40,774 nucleotides of DNA from Deltaproteobacteria bacterium (GTDB lineage: Bacteria; Desulfobacterota; DSM-4660; Desulfatiglandales; HGW-15). This document shows positions 21,629-31,999 of the stretch, piece after piece. The stretch is taken from NCBI GenBank assembly GCA_019310525.1, contig JAFDEE010000053.1:1-40774 (forward strand). The letters run 5' to 3'. The translations under genes and the position numbers were made by a program. Below the pieces are notes generated by a model, which saw only the letters and a list, made by a program, of their open reading frames with translations, was not told where the DNA came from and searched no databases. Every line of letters starts with the position of its first letter. Positions within the stretch are counted from its first letter, which is position 1.

Positions 21629-23638
21629 ATGAGGTATGCAGAGACAGGCTTTAACTTGGAAATTGATCTATCTCGAGGAAGCATTGAAAAGGTACAAACC
21701 GATCCTAGATTAACCGAGCTTCATCTGGGGGGGCTGGGTACTAATGCCAAAATATTATGGGACAGGGTCCCTCCTGAAGTTGATGCCTTTTCTCCTGATA
21801 ATCTGTTGATCTTTAGTTCGGGCCTCCTGGGGGGAACTCCGGCCCCAGGGGCTAATCGCACCATTGTTTCAACCATCTCGCCCCAGACCCATTTGATGGC
21901 ATATTCAATGATGGGGGGATTTTTTGCCCCGGAGTTGAAATATGCAGGGTATGACAAAGTTATCATCAGGGGGAAATCTCCCAGCCTGGTCTATTTGTGG
22001 ATAAACAACGACAAAGTGGAAATACGTGATGCCAGTCATCTCCATGGTAAAGGCGCTCTCGAAACTTCAGAACTCATACGGCAGGAATTGAATGAACCAA
22101 AGGTCCAGGTGGCTGCAATTGGGTTGGCCGGTGAAAACAGGGTCTACTATGCTTCCATCGAACATGGCAGGTCCAGCGCCAGCAGAGGTGGACTTGGTGC
22201 CGTCATGGGGGCCAAGGGACTAAAGGCCATTGCCGTTAGAGGAACGAAAGATGTTAATCTTGCAAGGCCCGATGAATTCTTCGAACTGTGTAACGAGGTG
22301 CTGAAATATATTCAATACAGGGCTGAACATCCCGTAAAAGGTGTGCCGGCTATACTGAAAGGAATAGGGTCACCCCAGGAAATGGCAATCCATGACGAGA
22401 AGTGGCATACGACCAGTTTCAGTTGGGGAAACGCGCGGCAGAGAAGAAAGGGCTTCTGGACCAAAGAGGTGGAAGAGGAGTGGAGCAGGACCCAGGAAAA
22501 CGCCGTTGAGCGACTGATAAGTTGCTATAACTGCCCCATGAAATGTGGGGCGGTTATTTCTTATCCCGCCCTCGGGGTCTCAAAGTACATGATGAAGTGT
22601 TACTCGAAGCTGACCTATGTAATGGGCGCAATGACGAACAGCCTGGATTTCGGCTTCAGGATCGCCGGTATGGCTCAGGAATATGGAGTGGACGGATACA
22701 CAACGCCGCAAGTTATGGCCTTCGCCGTTGAACTTTATGAAAACGGTATTTTGACTGATGAGGATATGCCGGGATTTCCTTCCGGCAACGAGGAGCGATT
22801 TTTCTGGTTGCTTGATAAAATTGTCCGTCGGGAAGGGATAGGAGATGTACTGGCTGATGGGGTTTATTGGGCAGCCCGTAAGATCGGCAAAGGAGCAGAG
22901 GCATATGATCATAACACAATCAAGAAACATGAACAGATCCCTATCAAGCTGGGAATGCTGAATCCTATTTATTACATAATGTGGGCCACCGGTGAAAAAG
23001 CAAATATTACCCAAATTGAAGGACAGCTTCCCCAGGCACCGTTTCCCACCAAAGAGTTGCGGGAGGATTTTGTAAAGGATTGGATCCAAGTTCCAACCAG
23101 AAACGGGGAAAAGATCAAGCAGTTTGTCTTGGAGTGGGGTGATCCAGGCACCGAATTCCCGAATTATCCGTCCACTGACCTGATCTGTGAGCTGGTCGAG
23201 TGGCAGGAGACTATGCACTATATTGATGATGCGGTTGGACTTTGTGCAGGACTTTCATCCTTCCCCCTTAAACCCCCCTATCATATACATAACCTGCCAC
23301 GGATTATTTCCAGCGGAACGGGATTCGATATGGACGAGGATGGGTTATGGGAATTAGTAAAAAGAAACCGCAATTTGATCAGAGCAGTCAATGTGAGACG
23401 AGGTCTGAGGAGAAAAGATGAGAAGCCTCCGGAGGACCACTGGAAGAAAAGATTCCCTGAGCTGGAATCCAAGTTACTTGACGAATATTATAAATTCAAG
23501 GGATGGAATAACGATGGTATTCCTACAAAAGAGACGTTGGACAAACTGGGCCTGGATTACGTGGCCGAAGACTTGATACAGAGGGGGATTTTGAAGGATA
23601 GTGATGAAGATGTTCCTTCCAAAGAAAAGTCCGCGTAA
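21629..23638 (+). CDS. bamB: Class II benzoyl-CoA reductase tungsten subunit BamB
   Basis: A 669-residue member of the aldehyde:ferredoxin oxidoreductase family, whose BamB branch holds the active site of ATP-independent benzoyl-CoA reductase. That enzyme makes cyclohexa-1,5-diene-1-carbonyl-CoA. The N-terminal part (DLSRGSIEKV ... GGLGTNAKILWDRV) is the tungsto-bis-pterin binding domain. Iron-sulfur ligands fall at Cys299, Cys302, Cys306 (SCYNCPMKCG) and Cys539 (DDAVGLCAG). Residues Glu251, His255 and His260 (EMAIHDEKWH) match, by number and spacing, the active-site set I recall for Geobacter BamB. Cys324 is the likely tungsten ligand (Cys322 in Geobacter as I recall). AGAAGGGGG precedes the ATG. 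It heads the string bamBCDEF. A paralog acting on another aryl-CoA cannot be excluded. Confidence 0.9.
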   Translation: MRYAETGFNLEIDLSRGSIEKVQTDPRLTELHLGGLGTNAKILWDRVPPEVDAFSPDNLLIFSSGLLGGTPAPGANRTIVSTISPQTHLMAYSMMGGFFAPELKYAGYDKVIIRGKSPSLVYLWINNDKVEIRDASHLHGKGALETSELIRQELNEPKVQVAAIGLAGENRVYYASIEHGRSSASRGGLGAVMGAKGLKAIAVRGTKDVNLARPDEFFELCNEVLKYIQYRAEHPVKGVPAILKGIGSPQEMAIHDEKWHTTSFSWGNARQRRKGFWTKEVEEEWSRTQENAVERLISCYNCPMKCGAVISYPALGVSKYMMKCYSKLTYVMGAMTNSLDFGFRIAGMAQEYGVDGYTTPQVMAFAVELYENGILTDEDMPGFPSGNEERFFWLLDKIVRREGIGDVLADGVYWAARKIGKGAEAYDHNTIKKHEQIPIKLGMLNPIYYIMWATGEKANITQIEGQLPQAPFPTKELREDFVKDWIQVPTRNGEKIKQFVLEWGDPGTEFPNYPSTDLICELVEWQETMHYIDDAVGLCAGLSSFPLKPPYHIHNLPRIISSGTGFDMDEDGLWELVKRNRNLIRAVNVRRGLRRKDEKPPEDHWKKRFPELESKLLDEYYKFKGWNNDGIPTKETLDKLGLDYVAEDLIQRGILKDSDEDVPSKEKSA

Positions 23639-23674
23639 TTAAAGAAGAAATATCGTGAAAAGGTGGTAACCGTT

Positions 23675-24223
23675 ATGACTGAGAAAAAAAAGAAAATAGT
23701 CAAAACGATAATTGTTGATGTTGACAAATGCAACGGCTGCCGGGCATGTGAAGTAGCTTGTTCTGCGTTTCATGCTACACCTAAATACAGCAGAAATAAC
23801 CCGGCCAGATCTCGGATTCGGGTAATTCATGAACCCCTTAAAAACATATACGTTCCTGTATATGCAGGTGAATACACTCCAGCCGAATGTGCCGGGAGGG
23901 ACAAGTATGTGATCGACGGAAAGGAATACGATGAATGTGCCTTCTGCAGGGCTTCCTGCCCATCCAGGGACCTGTTCAAGGAGCCTGACTCAGGACTTCC
24001 CCTGAAATGCGATATGTGTGAATCTGATCCACCTTTGGAAGAGCCTTTGTGTGTTCAGTGGTGCTTGGCCGACGCCCTGACTTATGAAGAAAGGGAAGAA
24101 GAAGTAGAAGAAGAAGAGAAAGTGGAAGATATTGAGGTGGGACTGGAATCATTGGTTGACAAATATGGACTTGACAAGGTGCTGGATAGTATTGCACGTA
24201 TGGCGATGTCAAAGAACGACTAA
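23675..24223 (+). CDS. bamC: BamC-type multi-[4Fe-4S] electron-transfer protein
   Basis: A 182-residue ferredoxin-like protein expected to pass electrons to BamB. Cysteine sets visible in order are CNGCRACEVAC (residues about 17-27), a middle group ending DECAFCRASCPSRD, and CDMCESDPPLEEPLCVQWC. This is the arrangement of HycB/CooF-like subunits paired with aldehyde:ferredoxin oxidoreductase family enzymes. A very acidic linker (EEREEEVEEEEKVED) and a short helical tail end the protein. The ATG at 23675 has AGGTGG eight bases upstream, and is preferred over a GTG at 23663. It starts 36 bases after the bamB stop. Confidence 0.87.
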   Translation: MTEKKKKIVKTIIVDVDKCNGCRACEVACSAFHATPKYSRNNPARSRIRVIHEPLKNIYVPVYAGEYTPAECAGRDKYVIDGKEYDECAFCRASCPSRDLFKEPDSGLPLKCDMCESDPPLEEPLCVQWCLADALTYEEREEEVEEEEKVEDIEVGLESLVDKYGLDKVLDSIARMAMSKND

Positions 24224-24256: not shown

Positions 24257-25408
24257 GTGGAAACCGTAGCCCCTTACAAAGAAATTATAGATGTCATAAA
24301 AGAGAGCGGTGGGGAAGCATTTAAAAGATGCTTTCAATGCGGATTATGCGATACTGTTTGTCCTTGGAATAGAGTTACTACCTTTAGCATGCGAAAGATA
24401 GTCCGACAGGCCACGTTCGGTTTGACTGAGATAGAAAGTGAAGATATATGGCGCTGTACGACCTGCGGAAGGTGCCCTCAGCAATGCCCAAGGGACGTAA
24501 AACAGATAGAGTCCGTGGTATCCTTACGCAGGATTGCTACGGAATACGGGGTCTTTCCTACGCCGGTAAAGCCTATCCGCACCGCAAGCGCGAGCCTTGT
24601 TGCCGAAGGTAATCCCTTGAATGAAGAACGGGAAAAGAGAGCGGATTGGGCCAAAGAATTGTCTGTAAAGACGTTCACCGAGGGGATGGAAATTTTATAT
24701 TTCCCCGGTTGCTACCTCAGCTATGATCCGAGATTAAAAAAGGTGGCCAGAGCGACAGCCGGTATTCTCAAGCAGGCAGGGGTCGATTTCGGAATACTGG
24801 GAACCAAAGAGAATTGCTGCGGAGAAAGCATCCGCAAGACGGGTGATGAGGAATTATTCAAACGCCTCGCCCGGGAGAACATCAAAAATTTTATTGATAA
24901 TGGAGTAAAGAAAATAGTCGTTTCCTCTCCTCATTGCTACCATACCTTCAAAAACGAGTATCCTGAATTCCAGGTGAATTTTGAGGTGGTTCATATCTCT
25001 CAATATTTGTTTGAACTTATTGGCGACGGAAAACTCGAACTCAAAAAGGAGTATGAAAAGAAAGTCACCTACCATGACCCATGTTATCTTGGGCGACATA
25101 ACGGAATATATGACGAGCCTCGGGAAATCTTAAACAAGATACCCGGTTTAGGGTTGTTGGAGATGTCCGACTCGCGGGTTGATAGCTTGTGTTGCGGTGG
25201 TGGGGGAGGCCGTATCTGGATGGAAACCAAAAAGGGTGAACGGTTCTCCGATATCAGGTTGGAACAGGCTATAGATGTTGGTGCTGAGGTGTTGGTTACT
25301 TCCTGCCCGTATTGCATCGCCAATTTCGAAGACAGCCGGTTAACCCTCGATGTCACCGAAAAAATAGAAGTTAAGGACATCACAGAGATAATACAGGAAG
25401 CTATTTAG
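24257..25408 (+). CDS. bamD: BamD, HdrD/GlpC-like iron-sulfur protein
   Basis: A 383-residue soluble protein with two N-terminal [4Fe-4S] motifs (CFQCGLCDTVCPWNR and CTTCGRCPQQCPRD). Two CCG domains follow (GCYLSYDPRLKK ... ENCCGES, and YHDPCYLGRHNGIY ... CCGGGGGRIW ... SCPYC). CCG domains carry the unusual cluster of heterodisulfide reductase HdrB/HdrD. In the Bam complex this subunit joins the HdrA-like BamE in the electron relay thought to drive benzoyl-CoA reduction by bifurcation. It has a GTG start, 33 bases after bamC. Its TAG stop lies in the end of repeat copy G, which separates bamD from bamE by about 280 bases. Confidence 0.87.
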   Translation: METVAPYKEIIDVIKESGGEAFKRCFQCGLCDTVCPWNRVTTFSMRKIVRQATFGLTEIESEDIWRCTTCGRCPQQCPRDVKQIESVVSLRRIATEYGVFPTPVKPIRTASASLVAEGNPLNEEREKRADWAKELSVKTFTEGMEILYFPGCYLSYDPRLKKVARATAGILKQAGVDFGILGTKENCCGESIRKTGDEELFKRLARENIKNFIDNGVKKIVVSSPHCYHTFKNEYPEFQVNFEVVHISQYLFELIGDGKLELKKEYEKKVTYHDPCYLGRHNGIYDEPREILNKIPGLGLLEMSDSRVDSLCCGGGGGRIWMETKKGERFSDIRLEQAIDVGAEVLVTSCPYCIANFEDSRLTLDVTEKIEVKDITEIIQEAI

Positions 25409-25690: not shown

Positions 25691-28600
25691 ATGGAAAGAG
25701 AATTTTTGATAAAAGAAAAAATTCAACAACTTTCTAAAAGTCTTGGAGACAGCAATTTCGGAGACGTTATGGTTGTTGGTGGAGGAATCAGTGGCATTCA
25801 AGCCTCTCTTGATCTTGCCGCTGCGGGTTTTAAGGTTTACCTTGTTGAGAAATCACCTGCTATCGGGGGCCATATGGCCCAACTTGACAAGACCTTCCCC
25901 ACCAACGACTGCTCTATGTGAATACTTTCGCCCAAACTGGTCGAGGTCGGCCGGCATCCTAACATAGAGGTTTTGACTTATACTGAAGTTGACGGTGTAG
26001 AAGGGGAAGCAGGAGACTTTAAGGTAACCCTTATCAAGAAGCCCAGATACATTATAGAAGACAAATGCACGGGCTGCACCACCTGTGTAGAATACTGCCC
26101 AGTGGAATACCCTGATCAATTTAATCAGGAGATATCGAAGAATAAGGCTGTTCATATATACTTTGCCCAAGCAATTCCTCTTGTCGCATATATTGATGAA
26201 AGCTGTATTTATCTTAAAGAGAAGAAATGTCGTATTTGTGAAAGCGTCTGCAAGAATGAAGCCATAGATTTTAATCAAAGACCGGAGAAGATGGAAATAA
26301 AGGTTGGGGCGGTAATTCTGTCTCCCGGCTTTGAGCCCTTTGATCCTAGAGTTAGAGATGAATATGGCTACGGAAAGATGCAGAACGTGGTAACCAGTAT
26401 GGATTACGAGCGGCTGCTATGTGCCACCGGGCCATATGAAGGTGAGATACTGCGTGCTTCCGACAAGAAACATCCACGCAAAATCGCCTGGATTCAATGC
26501 ATCGGTTCCAGACGGGTCACCCCTGGTGATAACAGCTATTGTTCAGCCGTATGTTGTACCTATACCCAGAAACAGGTGATTTTGACAAAGGATCACGACG
26601 CTGAGGCGGAGTGTACGATATTCCATAATGATATCCGTTCTTATGGCAAAGATTTTGAATTATACTATCAGAGAGCAGAACAACTTCCCGGCATTCGTTT
26701 CATAAGAAGCTACGCGTCAATCGTAAGAGAGATTCCCGAGAGCAAGAATGTTGTTGTAAGATATGCAACTCCCGATGATGGAGTAAAAGAGGAAGAATTC
26801 GATATGGTCGTGTTATCCGTCGGGTTGAATCCTCCTGCAGATTACGAGGATCTGGCGGATAAGTTCGGAATCGAGCTCAATTCCCATGGATTCTGTAATG
26901 CAGTTTCTTCCAATCCAATGGAGACAAACAGACCCGGGATCTTTGTAAGCGGCGCCTTCCAGGGGCCTACAGATATCCCGGAGTCGGTCTTTTCCGCGAG
27001 CGGAGCAGGATCCCAATGTGCTGAACTCCTTGACTACAGGCGCGGGAAGCTGACCAAGGAAAGAATATATCCGGAAGAAAGAGATGTTTCAAACGAGGAA
27101 CCCAGGGTCGGAGTTTTTGTATGTCATTGTGGAGCAAATATTGGAAGTGTGGTAGATGTTCCTTCCGTGGTCGAATATGCCTTGACCCTGCCTAATGTAA
27201 TCTACGCTCAGGAGCAGTTGTTTTCATGCGCTACCAACTCTGCAAAAGAAATAACGGACATGATCAAGGAAAAAGGGATCAATCGAGTGGTTATTGCTGC
27301 ATGCAGCCCCAGGACCCTTGAACCGTTATTCTGGGATACTCTTCGGGAAGCGGGAATTAATCAGTATTTCCTGGAGATGGCTAATATTAGAGAGCATTGC
27401 TCCTGGGTCCACTCACGAGAAAAAGAAGACGCCACCCAAAAGTCGAAGGATATAGTCCGGATGTCGGTGGCCCGGGCTTGCCATCTGGAACCCTTACAGG
27501 AAATTGATCTGCCGGTAAACAAGACGGCGTTGGTGGTTGGTGGAGGAATAGCCGGCATGACTTGTGCCCTCTCCATAGCCAATCAGGGACATGAGGTTTA
27601 TCTGGTTGAAAAAGATTCTGACCTGGGGGGAACAGCGCGGAGGCTCCATTACACTTTAGAGGGGCTGGATGTCCAGGCCTATTTGGGTGACCTCGTGCGC
27701 AAAGTTTATCAACACCCTTTAATACATGTCTATACTGATGCCGTTATCACAGAGGCTACCGGTTATGTCGGGAATTTCGTAACCAAAGTAAAGTCTGAAA
27801 GAGGGGTTACAGAGATAAAACATGGAGCAGCCGTTATCGCGATCGGAGCCGATGAATATAAACCCACCGAATACCTTTATGGAGAAGATGAAAGGGTAAT
27901 GACCCACCTTGAGTTGGAGGAGCTGATAGCCAAAGGAGACGAAAGGCTTATCAACTCCAACAGCCTGGTCATGATCCAATGCGTAGGCTGCAGACAAGAG
28001 GACAGAAATTACTGTGCCCGGGTATGTTGCAGCCATGCTATAAAGAATGCCCTGAAACTGAAAGAAATAAACCCCGAGATGGATATTTACATTCTCTTTC
28101 GGGATATGAGAACCTATGGATTCAGGGAGGATTATTACCGAGAAGCGTCCAATAAGGATGTAAAGTTCATCTGCTATGAGCCGGATGATAAACCTCAGGT
28201 GGAAGCTGTTGAAGAAGAGGGTCGGCCTGTTTTAAGGGTTACCGTGACCGACTCCATCTTGGGTCAGAAGCTTGCATTAGACGCTGATTTCCTTTCTTTG
28301 GCTGCTGCCGTTATTCCACCTGCAGAAAACAAGGAAATATCCCAATTGTTCAAGGTCTCTTTGGGACCGGATGACTTTTTCAAAGAGGCGCATGTCAAAT
28401 TAAGACCTGTTGAGTTCAGTACAGATGGTGTCTATCTTTGCGGAATGGCCCACTACCCCAAACACATACCGGAAGTGATCAACCAGGCCTTTGGAGCTGC
28501 AGGTAGGACTTTAACTCTCCTCTCAAACGATATAATCACTGTCTCAGGTTCAGTTTGCGAGGTGGACGAGAAGAAGTGTATGGGATGTGGGGCATGTATT

Positions 28601-28828
28601 TCAGCATGTACGTATGGCGCCATAGAGTTCCGTGAGACACGACAGGGCAAAAAGGCTGTAGTTAATCCTGTTATTTGTAAAGGAGACGGTCTTTGTAATG
28701 CAAAGTGTCCGACAGGAGCCATTTCACTAAAGCACTTTACCGATGAAGAGATAGTAAGCCAAATCGATGCCGCGGCTTCGGAGGAAGAGATCATACAACA
28801 AATCGATGCAGCGGTTGGAGATGTCTAA
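25691..28828 (+). CDS. bamE: BamE, HdrA-like selenoflavoprotein (TGA at codon 77 read as Sec)
   Basis: A 1045-codon HdrA-like subunit read through one in-frame TGA at 25919-25921. The N-terminal FAD motif is [20 protein letters not shown] and leads to the HdrA signature TFPTNDCSM. The TGA occupies the site where HdrA proteins have Cys, and the frame continues at once with [15 protein letters not shown], as in the family. Further on are ferredoxin motifs [11 protein letters not shown] and [13 protein letters not shown], a second FAD motif [20 protein letters not shown] near residue 618, and C-terminal clusters [14 protein letters not shown] and [10 protein letters not shown]. HdrA subunits use FAD for electron bifurcation, so it should take part in driving benzoyl-CoA reduction. 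Automatic calls would split it into a 76-residue fragment and a 951-residue protein. Confidence 0.9.
25922..25960 (+). ncRNA. SECIS-like hairpin for BamE selenocysteine
   Basis: Directly after the TGA, CTGGTC (25937-25942) pairs with GGCCGG (25949-25954), including two G-U pairs, around the loop GAGGTC. The loop starts 22 bases past the TGA, within the distance usual for bacterial SECIS. It contains GGT, as in the E. coli fdhF apical loop. Recognition by SelB is inferred. Confidence 0.6.
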
Positions 28829-28878: not shown

Positions 28879-29706
28879 ATGAGTGACGGACTTCAATTTA
28901 AGCCGAATATATTAGGTTTTGTCTGTCATTGGTGAGCATACGGCGCTGCTGACCTGGCTGGAGTTTCCAGACTGCAATATACGACTGACATCAAACTCAT
29001 TCGTGTCATGTGTTCAGGTCGAGTCGACCTGGAATATGTACTTAGATCTTTCTTGAATGGCATGGATGGAGTTTTTATTGGTGGTTGTCGTCTTAATGAG
29101 TGCAATTATATTACTCATGGAAATTACCATGCACTGAACATGGTGCATCTGTGCAAAAAAATTATGGAATACATAGGCCTGAACCCGGAAAGATTAAGGA
29201 TAGAATTTATGACTTCCGGGGAAGGAATCCTTTTTGCTGAACTTATGAATGATTTCGCCAAGAAGGTGAGGGAAATAGGACCTCTAGGCAAAAGCGAAGG
29301 AATAGAAGAAAATGAATTGAAAAGCAGATTGGAGAATGTAAAAAAGCTGGTTCCTTACATTAAACTGATAAAAAAAGAGAAGATGGCGCTACGCCTTGAT
29401 AATATAGAAGAATATAATGAACTTTATACCAGTGAAGAAATAGACAAGCTGTTTAGTGAAGTAGTCTCTTACTATATTGATCCTGAAAAGTGCCAGGCCT
29501 GCATGATATGCCGGAGGAGATGCCCCGCAGAGGCGATCATTGGCGGCAAAAAACAGATACATGTCATTGACCAGGATAAATGCATAAAATGTGGAACCTG
29601 CTTTGAAGCTTGTCCCCCCCGCTTTGGTGCAATTAAAAAAATTATAGGAGAGCCAGTTCCGCCTCCTATTCCTGAAGAACAAAGGGCTATTGCCAGAACG
29701 GGCTAA
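28879..29706 (+). CDS. bamF: BamF, MvhD/ferredoxin selenoprotein (TGA at codon 19 read as Sec)
   Basis: A 275-codon protein with ATG at 28879 (AGAAGGA upstream). It reads PNILGFVCHW, then TGA at 28933-28935, then AYGAADLAG. MvhD-family proteins have Cys at the TGA site (pattern CxWC-x-Y-G-G-A-D), so selenocysteine is the natural reading. The [2Fe-2S] delta-subunit domain continues with VMCSGRVD and GGCRLNECNYITHGNYHA, and the C-terminus adds two [4Fe-4S] motifs (CQACMICRRRCPAEAI and CIKCGTCFEACPPRFGAI). It should pass electrons between the HdrA-like BamE and its donor. BamF of Geobacter is known to contain selenocysteine. BamG-I, the next genes in Geobacter, are absent here. The TAA stop lies in the terminus of repeat copy F. 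Confidence 0.9.
28936..28975 (+). ncRNA. SECIS-like hairpin for BamF selenocysteine
   Basis: CTGGA (28958-28962) and TCCAG (28966-28970) pair perfectly around a GTT loop, 27 bases past the TGA, the distance range expected for a bacterial SECIS. It is a short stem; recognition by SelB is inferred. Confidence 0.55.
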
Positions 29707-30479: not shown

Positions 30480-31184
30480 ATGACGAATAGCAATGTATTA
30501 CAGGAAGTTGAGCTGATCCGGATGAACGGAGGTTGTGAGCGAACCACCGAACATATCATCCGTGAGACCGCCCAGACATTTCGCATTAACGGCGAGCCAT
30601 ATGTCACAGCCATGATGCTGGCCGGAATGGAAAAGGAGTTCGCGGTGGGGCATCTCTATGCCCAAGGGATAATCTCAGGGATGTCCGATATTGTGTCAAT
30701 CACCGTGACCGGGACGACGTTAGAGGTAATGCTGGCCTATACCAAGAAACCCGGCGAAGAGCCTGGCCCGGTTGACTCCGACCTCGTCGTCGACTGCAAC
30801 ACAGTGTTCACCTGCGTCAAGGCTATCTTGAAATCTGATATCTTTGCCGAGACCGAGGCGGTACATTCCGCCGGGCTGTTCATGGAAGGAACAGAAACCG
30901 TTTCCATCGTGGAAGACCTGGGCCGTCACCATGCCCTTGATAAAGTCATCGGTGCGGCGCTCTTACAGGGTAAGGATTTAACCAGGGCGTTAGTCACCTC
31001 TACCGGACGCTTACCGGCCGAGATGATCTCCAAGTGCCGCAACGCCGGCATCCCCATCATAGCCACCAAGGGGGTGCCGACTACCAAGGCCGTGGAGCTG
31101 GCAAAGCGGAGCGGGATCACAATTGCAGGTCTGGTGCGAAGTACGACAATGTTCGTCTATTCGCACCCGGAGCGGATAAGATGA
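30480..31184 (+). CDS. fdhD: FdhD-like sulfurtransferase, first of a tandem pair
   Basis: FdhD carries sulfur from a cysteine desulfurase to the molybdenum or tungsten bis-pterin cofactor of formate dehydrogenases. The 234-residue protein has the family pattern: FRINGEPYVTAMMLAGMEKEFAVGHLYAQGII, then AVHSAGLFMEG and VEDLGRHHALDKVIGAALL, and lastly LVTSTGRLPAEMISKCRNAGIPIIATKG. The usual CGxC sulfur-carrying motif is absent from its normal place; only an atypical CNTVFTC lies nearby. It overlaps the second FdhD gene by an ATGA junction. With no formate dehydrogenase in the window and the tungsten enzyme BamB just upstream, it may serve BamB cofactor maturation (inference). Confidence 0.85.
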   Translation: MTNSNVLQEVELIRMNGGCERTTEHIIRETAQTFRINGEPYVTAMMLAGMEKEFAVGHLYAQGIISGMSDIVSITVTGTTLEVMLAYTKKPGEEPGPVDSDLVVDCNTVFTCVKAILKSDIFAETEAVHSAGLFMEGTETVSIVEDLGRHHALDKVIGAALLQGKDLTRALVTSTGRLPAEMISKCRNAGIPIIATKGVPTTKAVELAKRSGITIAGLVRSTTMFVYSHPERIR

Positions 31185-31999
31185 ATTTGGAAGCCAAATC
31201 CATGATACTTCCGGGCCGGCAGCTCCGGGAGAGAAAGTTCACGGACGTTGAAATCCCAGTTGTCATAGAGCGGGAGCTGCGCATCATTTTCAATGGCAAA
31301 CACCTCGTCACTGCATCTTTGATGCCGGGGATGGAACAGGAATTTGTGACCGGTTACCTCTTCAGTCAGGGTTTTATTAAGACGACTAAGGATATTTCAT
31401 CTCTTGTGGTCGAAGGTGCCTCCGCCAGTGTGACCCTGTCTGAAACGGCAGTCCCTGCGCTCACGGAGACCAGCTATCGTATCGTTTCAGGGGGCGGTCG
31501 CACGGCTTATACCGATGGAAGCCTGCCTGAAATCAGGTCCGATCTAACTGTGCAAAAGGATGCCGTGTTCCGGGCTATGAACCATTTGTTCGATATTGCC
31601 ACGGTCTATAAGGAGACGAAGGGCGTTCACTCCGCCGGGATATTCACACCGACTGCCGAACCCGTTTGCATTGTTGAAGAGATCGGGCGGCATAACTGCC
31701 TGGATAAGGCCATCGGTTACGCACTTCTCCGCAACATCGATTGCAGCCGCCACTTTATTGCTTCTACGGGCCGCATGGCCTCGGAGATGGTGGCCAAGCT
31801 ATGCAGGGCGGGGTTTCCGGTGGTGGCCACCAAAACGGCCGTGACGGATAAGGGATTAGAGACAGCTCAGGCCAGTGGAATGACGCTCATCGGCTTCGTC
31901 CGGGACAGGGGCACGAGAATTAACACGGACATGGAGGTGAGGGTAATCGAAGAGCCGGTGATGAAAATCTATACGGGTGGTGAACGGATAACCTGTTAA
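31181..31999 (+). CDS. fdhD: FdhD-like protein, second of a tandem pair (no CxxC motif)
   Basis: A 272-residue FdhD homolog. Conserved pieces are IIFNGKHLVTASLMPGMEQEFVTGYLFSQGFI, GVHSAGIFTPTAEPVCIVEEIGRHNCLDKAIGYALL and IASTGRMASEMVAKLCRAGFPVVATKTA. Where canonical FdhD has the two catalytic cysteines it reads VSGGGRTAYTDG, so the persulfide-carrying cysteines are missing. It may act as a cofactor-binding chaperone or as a heteromeric partner of the first copy, to which it is translationally coupled (ATGA overlap). The start ATG at 31181 is chosen for that overlap; a longer frame back to 31034 lies inside the first gene. Confidence 0.83.
   Translation: MNLEAKSMILPGRQLRERKFTDVEIPVVIERELRIIFNGKHLVTASLMPGMEQEFVTGYLFSQGFIKTTKDISSLVVEGASASVTLSETAVPALTETSYRIVSGGGRTAYTDGSLPEIRSDLTVQKDAVFRAMNHLFDIATVYKETKGVHSAGIFTPTAEPVCIVEEIGRHNCLDKAIGYALLRNIDCSRHFIASTGRMASEMVAKLCRAGFPVVATKTAVTDKGLETAQASGMTLIGFVRDRGTRINTDMEVRVIEEPVMKIYTGGERITC

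Follow-up and report, generated by a model that had tools for sequence, protein, structure and literature searches.

A conserved tandem pair of unlike FdhD proteins without the CGxC loop cysteines, encoded downstream of bam genes in a deltaproteobacterial contig

The stretch of DNA analysed here, called the window throughout, is the whole of the 40 774-nucleotide contig JAFDEE010000053.1 from a Deltaproteobacteria bacterium of the order Desulfatiglandales (assembly GCA_019310525.1). It carries two adjoining genes for proteins of the FdhD/NarQ family, FdhD1 and FdhD2, neither of which has the paired cysteines of the CGxC loop. FdhD-type proteins assist in loading enzymes with their molybdenum or tungsten cofactors. 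The same pair recurs in five other genomes, and we conclude that FdhD exists here in a genuine two-gene form that has been conserved. The most likely explanation, which we hold with middling confidence, is that the two proteins would form an asymmetric heterodimeric FdhD that carries a bis-pterin cofactor without using a cysteine relay. The features concerned are collected in Table 1.

Table 1. Coordinates of the FdhD pair, of its distinguishing features and of the upstream bam genes, counted from the first nucleotide of the window
Feature	Position	Strand	Length	Remarks
bamB	21629..23638	+		AFOR_N + AFOR_C; tungsten subunit of class II benzoyl-CoA reductase
bamC	23663..24223	+		4Fe-4S domains; gene order
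bamD	24257..25408	+		CCG + Fer4_8
bamE	25691..28828	+		HdrA2-like; in-frame TGA at 25919-25921, one frame with TGA = U
bamF	28879..29706	+		FlpD/VhuD-like; in-frame TGA at 28933-28935, reads through with TGA = U
FdhD1	30480..31184	+	234 aa	FdhD fold, CGxC loop deleted; PF02634 184.6 bits
Missing-loop site in FdhD1 (E. coli Cys121/Cys124 region)	30750..30764	+		From alignment; edges approximate
FdhD1 Cys186	31035..31037	+		Invariant in 6/6 FdhD1; Cys in 0/66 other rows with a letter there
ATGA overlap (FdhD1 stop TGA/FdhD2 start ATG)	31181..31184	+		Kept in 5/6 pairs
FdhD2	31181..31999	+	272 aa	Internal ATG start; FdhD fold, cysteine-free loop retained; PF02634 196.2 bits
SGGGR of FdhD2 at the CGxC position	31487..31501	+		SGGGR(T/S)A in 6/6 FdhD2
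FdhD2 Cys208	31802..31804	+		Invariant in 6/6 FdhD2; Cys in 0/66 other rows with a letter there
FdhD2 insert (16 residues) preceding the last strand	31913..31960	+		Edges approximate; low model confidence

Both proteins belong to the FdhD/NarQ family by profile score and by fold. In profile searches their PF02634 scores (Table 1) were well above the gathering cut-off of 27.2 bits, and their TIGR00129 scores (152.6 bits for FdhD1 and 159.1 bits for FdhD2) exceeded the cut-off of 140.9; the NF001943 cut-off of 269 was reached by neither (151.9 and 144.8, respectively). AlphaFold (AF2) single-chain models, each built with six sequences, had a pLDDT of 82 for FdhD1 and 73 for FdhD2, and for both models 4pde and 2pw9 alone were matched in the PDB at E ≤ 0.001. 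An earlier note, made from the letters of the window, had described two coupled FdhD-like genes overlapping by ATGA, and this description stands: both ORFs are present and both products pass the PF02634 and TIGR00129 cut-offs. The FdhD motifs that it quoted were also found, with the correction that STGR.ASEM suits FdhD2 alone, the corresponding stretch of FdhD1 being STGRLPAEM.

Alignment to E. coli FdhD (NC_000913), with Cys121 and Cys124 as the reference for the loop, showed that the two proteins have lost the cysteines in different ways. FdhD1 has a gap over the entire loop, and so do all of its six orthologues, the window's copy included. In FdhD2, YRIVSGGGRTAYTDG aligns with GCGVCG of E. 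coli, so that Cys121 is replaced by Gly and Cys124 by Thr (Ser in one copy out of six). The paired cysteines are thus absent from their usual place in both genes, as a gap in FdhD1 and as SGGGRTA in FdhD2, and the earlier observation of twin FdhD genes without CGxC cysteines is confirmed. The absence of loop cysteines is, by itself, not new. We gathered 89 FdhD rows, of which 84 entered a first tree (short frames being omitted); six long-branch rows (L060, L066, L073, L121, L124 and L130) were omitted from a second tree, from the alignment and from the residue counts, so that the 12 rows of the pair were compared with 68 others, 67 from the order plus E. coli. Two loop cysteines are present in 43 of these 68 rows, one in 6 and none in the remaining 19, so that their loss is common. 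It is also in print: the accessible text of PMC6239281 defines a Group III of FdhDs without cysteines, and that of PMC10609526 states that the Methanococcus maripaludis FdhD has no loop cysteines and suggests that sulfuration proceeds there by another mechanism. A second, apparently independent, deletion of the loop was seen in L070 and L071, each the sole FdhD that turned up in its genome (G017 and G022, both small and of family f2); the two proteins group with the clade that contains the CGxC FdhDs linked to bam genes.

Of 85 genomes of the order searched with PF02634, 68 gave an FdhD match. Four of them (G079, G080, G081 and G083), which belong to a single genus, g47, of another family, carry this tandem pair, with identities of 65-72%. 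When FdhD1 was searched in 395 genomes of the phylum at E ≤ 1e-37, two matched, the window's own and G449, a member of a third family. The FdhD1 of G449 is 55% identical and has FdhD2 beside it; the four g47 genomes cannot have been part of this sample, since they would have matched. A scan of genome contigs with FdhD2 as a single protein gave two loci only, which by their length are those of G080 and G081. The pair is therefore documented in six genomes, the window's (G000) and the five others, from families f1, f3 and f58. FdhD2 adjoins FdhD1 in every genome found with FdhD1, the arrangement is tandem in all six pairs and the ATGA overlap is kept in five, which extends the coupling proposed in the earlier note to a conserved unit. 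The exception is G449, where the first ATG of FdhD2 lies 35 nt past the FdhD1 stop. In each of the six genomes the pair provides the only PF02634 matches at E ≤ 0.001; as these genomes are 80 to 98% complete (80% for G081 and 97% for G449), a canonical FdhD could be missing from the assemblies. The dN/dS ratio lay at 0.13-0.24 in all but one of eight comparisons (the remaining one was saturated), and both proteins are under purifying selection. Since both changes of the loop recur in five other genomes with such ratios, the pair is not the product of chance or of a sequencing error; six pairs and these ratios together rule out an artefact, a frameshift or pseudogenes. Among the papers listed, none was about a tandem FdhD pair as judged by title or start of abstract, in a search that covered the subscription literature thinly.

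How could such a pair have arisen? In the 84-row tree FdhD1 and FdhD2 each formed a clade and the two clades were sisters (99/93), with a warning about long branches. In the second tree, to which G449 was added and from which the six long rows were removed, the two clades of six had supports of 100 and 97 and their union had 77, a moderate value for what are still two long branches. When either clade was left out of the second tree, the other adjoined a clade of cysteine-less FdhDs that have LLESTG. G449 is the first split in both the FdhD1 and the FdhD2 clade, as expected of co-inheritance. The simplest reading of these trees is a tandem duplication of an FdhD near the cysteine-less LLESTG group. 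Divergence after it would have been uneven: FdhD1 has lost the loop and Pro59, and FdhD2 has lost Val247 and the proline that is consensus at E. coli position 242, where E. coli itself has Ala. FdhD2 also has an insert of 16 letters in six copies out of six, where FdhD1 has none in six and where none of the 68 other rows has an insert of eight letters or more.

In the window the pair follows a bam cluster. As the earlier note had it, bamB lies upstream, and it is accompanied by bamC, bamD, bamE and bamF; the subunit name BamB is taken over from the described Bam cluster and agrees with the gene order. About 770 bp separate bamF from FdhD1, and a phosphoglycerate mutase gene follows FdhD2 after 46 bp. 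The contexts of the in-frame TGA codons of bamE and bamF read as selenocysteine, and plain ORF calling shortens both genes. The window's genome has 11 AOR-family genes. It also has a second bamB, with 77% identity, which lies on a different contig (G000:C29, L148) without FdhD. In the other five pair genomes no bam gene was found beside the pair as far as the contigs reach, which is 0.2 kb upstream of FdhD1 in G081, 0.7 kb upstream in G449 and about 1.5 kb downstream of FdhD2 in G083. Apart from the pair, nothing recurs on all four g47 contigs; G079 and G083 have upstream genes in common, and G080 and G083 a carbohydrate kinase gene on the downstream side. Other neighbours that were scanned are AbiEi/AbiEii-like genes, antiporter-type subunits, tetrapyrrole genes, an FmdE-like gene, a transporter and a RACo-like gene, and no Mo/W partner common to the scanned neighbours emerged. 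The FmdE-like gene, in G083 (L085 2457-3107), has a zinc finger and is convergent to the pair.

Order-wide, FdhD genes cluster with bam genes far above chance. In the 45 genomes of the order that have both FdhD and bamB, 11 of the 59 FdhD places (in 10 genomes, the window's included) are within 15 kb of bamB, when at most 0.65 were expected; this count takes in two FdhD fragments (G005:C382 and G006:C690) and a two-frame gene (G067:C207). Other bam genes are near FdhD in G003 and G027, and weak matches to bamD (55%) and bamE (36%) in G078. With the exception of the pair, all bam-linked FdhDs with a readable loop are of the CGxC kind. In G011 (L063) a CGxC FdhD follows bamBCDEF, where the pair stands in the window, and in G396 an FdhD with an SSCGMCG loop is beside bamB. 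Published gene tables provide parallels: FdhD stands between BamD and BamE in a bam cluster in PMC13101534, and as a table row among bam genes in PMC5852087. Near another AOR-family enzyme, CsWOR41, FdhD was noted in the accessible text of PMC13328260, with the remark that it might be required for this enzyme.

The earlier note had suggested that the pair may be specialised for BamB, on the grounds of its position and of having no formate dehydrogenase (FDH) in view. The latter point is correct for the window only, as a Sec-type FDH encoded elsewhere in the same genome rules it out at the genome level. An Fdh-alpha above the curated cut-off, with an in-frame TGA, was found in the window's genome and in G079, G080, G081 and G083, that is, in five of the six pair genomes. 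G449 has no Fdh-alpha over the cut-off; its best match (380.8 bits versus 666.25) is a 1277-aa protein fused to glutamate-synthase-like domains. Among solved structures, its nearest relatives are 9bov, 8oh5 and 9n5u (NfnA), and we take it to be of the electron-bifurcating transhydrogenase kind. Because 8oh5_C, named 'Formate dehydrogenase-O, major subunit' by its depositors, is among these relatives, G449 may nevertheless not be free of FDH-like enzymes. Two bam operons are also present in G449, along with two 700-aa enzymes that resemble MoOR L006 of the window's genome, a protein closest to acetylene hydratase (2e7z). L006 and another Mo/W enzyme, L005, are encoded side by side in the window's genome (G000:C46). 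As to bamB, it is present in five of the six pair genomes; G081, which has the pair and an FDH, gave no match, at 80% completeness. In the comparison of genomes that the earlier note had proposed, bamB and an Fdh-alpha over the cut-off each accompany the pair in five of six genomes, with bam genes beside the pair in one genome of six (flanks being cut in G081 and G449). In genus g187, G279 has an FDH without a match to FdhD or bamB, and G396 has an FDH with its FdhD beside bamB. A Sec-type FDH without any FdhD match was seen in both G029 and G279, which are 93-95% complete.

What do these distributions say about the role of the pair? One possibility is that the pair works for BamB alone, and that it inserts or sulfurates the tungsten bis-pterin cofactor of this enzyme. 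The cluster directly upstream with its counterpart in G011, the order-wide linkage, the presence of bamB in most pair genomes, the two bam operons of G449 with no FDH over the cut-off, the bam tables of PMC13101534 and PMC5852087 and the CsWOR41 case of PMC13328260, as far as its accessible text goes, all argue for it. We nonetheless consider it unlikely: no bam gene adjoins the pair in five genomes (within the flanks given above), G081 has no bamB match, FDH is present in five of the six pair genomes, bamB is widespread in the order in any case (51 of 85 genomes), and genomes such as G029, 95% complete, have bamB without an FdhD match. The BamB cofactor is not known to contain guanine nucleotides, so that it may not fit the nucleotide site of FdhD. 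The idea that the cysteines were lost as an adaptation to BamB is not supported, since the other readable bam-linked FdhDs are CGxC. The BamB reading is thus partly supported, by the linkage and by G449. A variant in which the pair is an obligate heterodimeric cysteine-free FdhD, with BamB among its clients and with one half specialised in holding the cofactor and the other in handing it over, we regard as doubtful. The converse possibility, that the pair serves formate dehydrogenases only, as FdhD does in E. coli, and does so via a cysteine-free route, is also improbable to our mind. It would agree with the five genomes in which the pair is the only FdhD found and an Fdh-alpha is present, and the accessible parts of two papers lend it plausibility: cysteine variants of FdhD and FdsC still yield active FDH (PMC6239281), and FDH was sulfurated in vitro by sulfide plus a reductant (PMC12140954). 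Against it stands G449, which at 97% completeness keeps the pair although no match there reaches the Fdh-alpha cut-off, the best being the fused protein. Moreover, FdhD genes near FDH genes are rare in the order: a single FdhD lies within 12 kb of any of the 122 listed FDHs over the cut-off.

It could also be that the cysteines were displaced rather than lost, and that FdhD1 Cys186 together with FdhD2 Cys208, or FdhD1 Cys112, constitutes a new sulfur relay. The invariance of Cys186 and Cys208 and their restriction to the pair among the rows compared (Table 1) speak for this, as do their neighbouring columns, that of Cys208 being one after that of Cys186 in the alignment (the FdhD1 of G081 likewise has a Cys in the Cys208 column). 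Cys112 is invariant in the six FdhD1 as well, and three of the rows that share a Cys there also lack loop cysteines. Yet Cys112 has a counterpart in 18 other rows in all, 15 of which carry two loop cysteines, and the D. psychrophila FdhD (2pw9), which has its loop Cys, has a Cys at the place aligned with Cys186 too. We find such a relay quite improbable. Finally, FdhD1 and FdhD2 could act as separate homodimers. Against the cysteine-free heterodimer that we favour one may hold that the genes of G449 are without the ATGA overlap, that the FdhD1 and FdhD2 clades are long-branched with moderately supported sisterhood, and that each protein retains other invariant cysteines, which leave some room for a displaced relay.

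The asymmetric heterodimer would work as follows. A duplicated and asymmetrically diverged FdhD would have replaced the single canonical FdhD as the only one of the cell, and FdhD1 and FdhD2 would pair as a heterodimer instead of the usual homodimer. This heterodimer would bind the Mo/W bis-pterin cofactor and pass it to one or more Mo/W enzymes. Because the loop cysteines are absent from both proteins, the pair would make no use of the cysteine-persulfide relay from IscS, and any sulfido ligand would have to be supplied by free sulfide or by another donor; a sulfur source other than the relay would be in line with what has been suggested in print for cysteine-free FdhDs. According to the accessible texts of PMC6239281 and PMC10609526, E. 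coli FdhD is dimeric: parts of both monomers contribute to its nucleotide sites, and the loops that bear the cysteines lie at the other face. With nucleotide sites drawn from both monomers, a heterodimer could specialise its halves. Candidate clients are the Sec-type formate dehydrogenase, the acetylene-hydratase-like enzymes and BamB. None of them on its own accounts for all six genomes as observed, whereas a carrier that serves several Mo/W bis-pterin enzymes does.

The delivery of the sulfido ligand and of tungsten bis-pterin to enzymes is only partly understood, and a conserved two-part FdhD without the supposedly catalytic cysteines offers a natural test of whether the family consists in essence of cofactor carriers or of sulfurtransferases. 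The order-wide linkage of FdhD with bam also makes it testable whether FdhD takes part in the maturation of benzoyl-CoA reductase, a key enzyme of anaerobic aromatic breakdown. In the texts consulted, the case for FdhD serving an AOR-family enzyme goes no further than the suggestion made for CsWOR41 (PMC13328260).

If compared with the structurally characterized FdhDs of E. coli (4PDE) and D. psychrophila (2PW9), the pair shares the PF02634 family, the overall fold and the conserved GRH(N/H)..DK and GR..EM..K motifs. These proteins, however, consist of one kind of subunit that forms a dimer with cysteine-bearing loops, whereas the pair has two unlike subunits, FdhD1 without the loop and FdhD2 with a loop rich in Gly and an insert near its C-terminus. 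Closer in one respect are the cysteine-free FdhDs of Group III (PMC6239281), including that of M. maripaludis (PMC10609526), which likewise keep the family motifs and have no loop cysteines; the accessible parts of these papers describe them as single proteins, in contrast to a tandem with the loop deleted in one copy. The LLESTG-type FdhDs, which come from the same order (six rows, e.g. L064 and L065), form the clade nearest to the pair and have no loop cysteine, but they are not tandem, and five of their six genomes encode another, different, FdhD elsewhere. At two of these six loci (L065 ~6603 and L136 ~6885) a 700-aa acetylene-hydratase-like Mo/W enzyme is encoded nearby. The bam-linked CGxC FdhDs (e.g. 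L063, L089 and L092), in turn, lie in or beside bam clusters as the pair does in the window, but each is a single gene and has a loop of the (T/S)SCGICG type, unlike either member of the pair.
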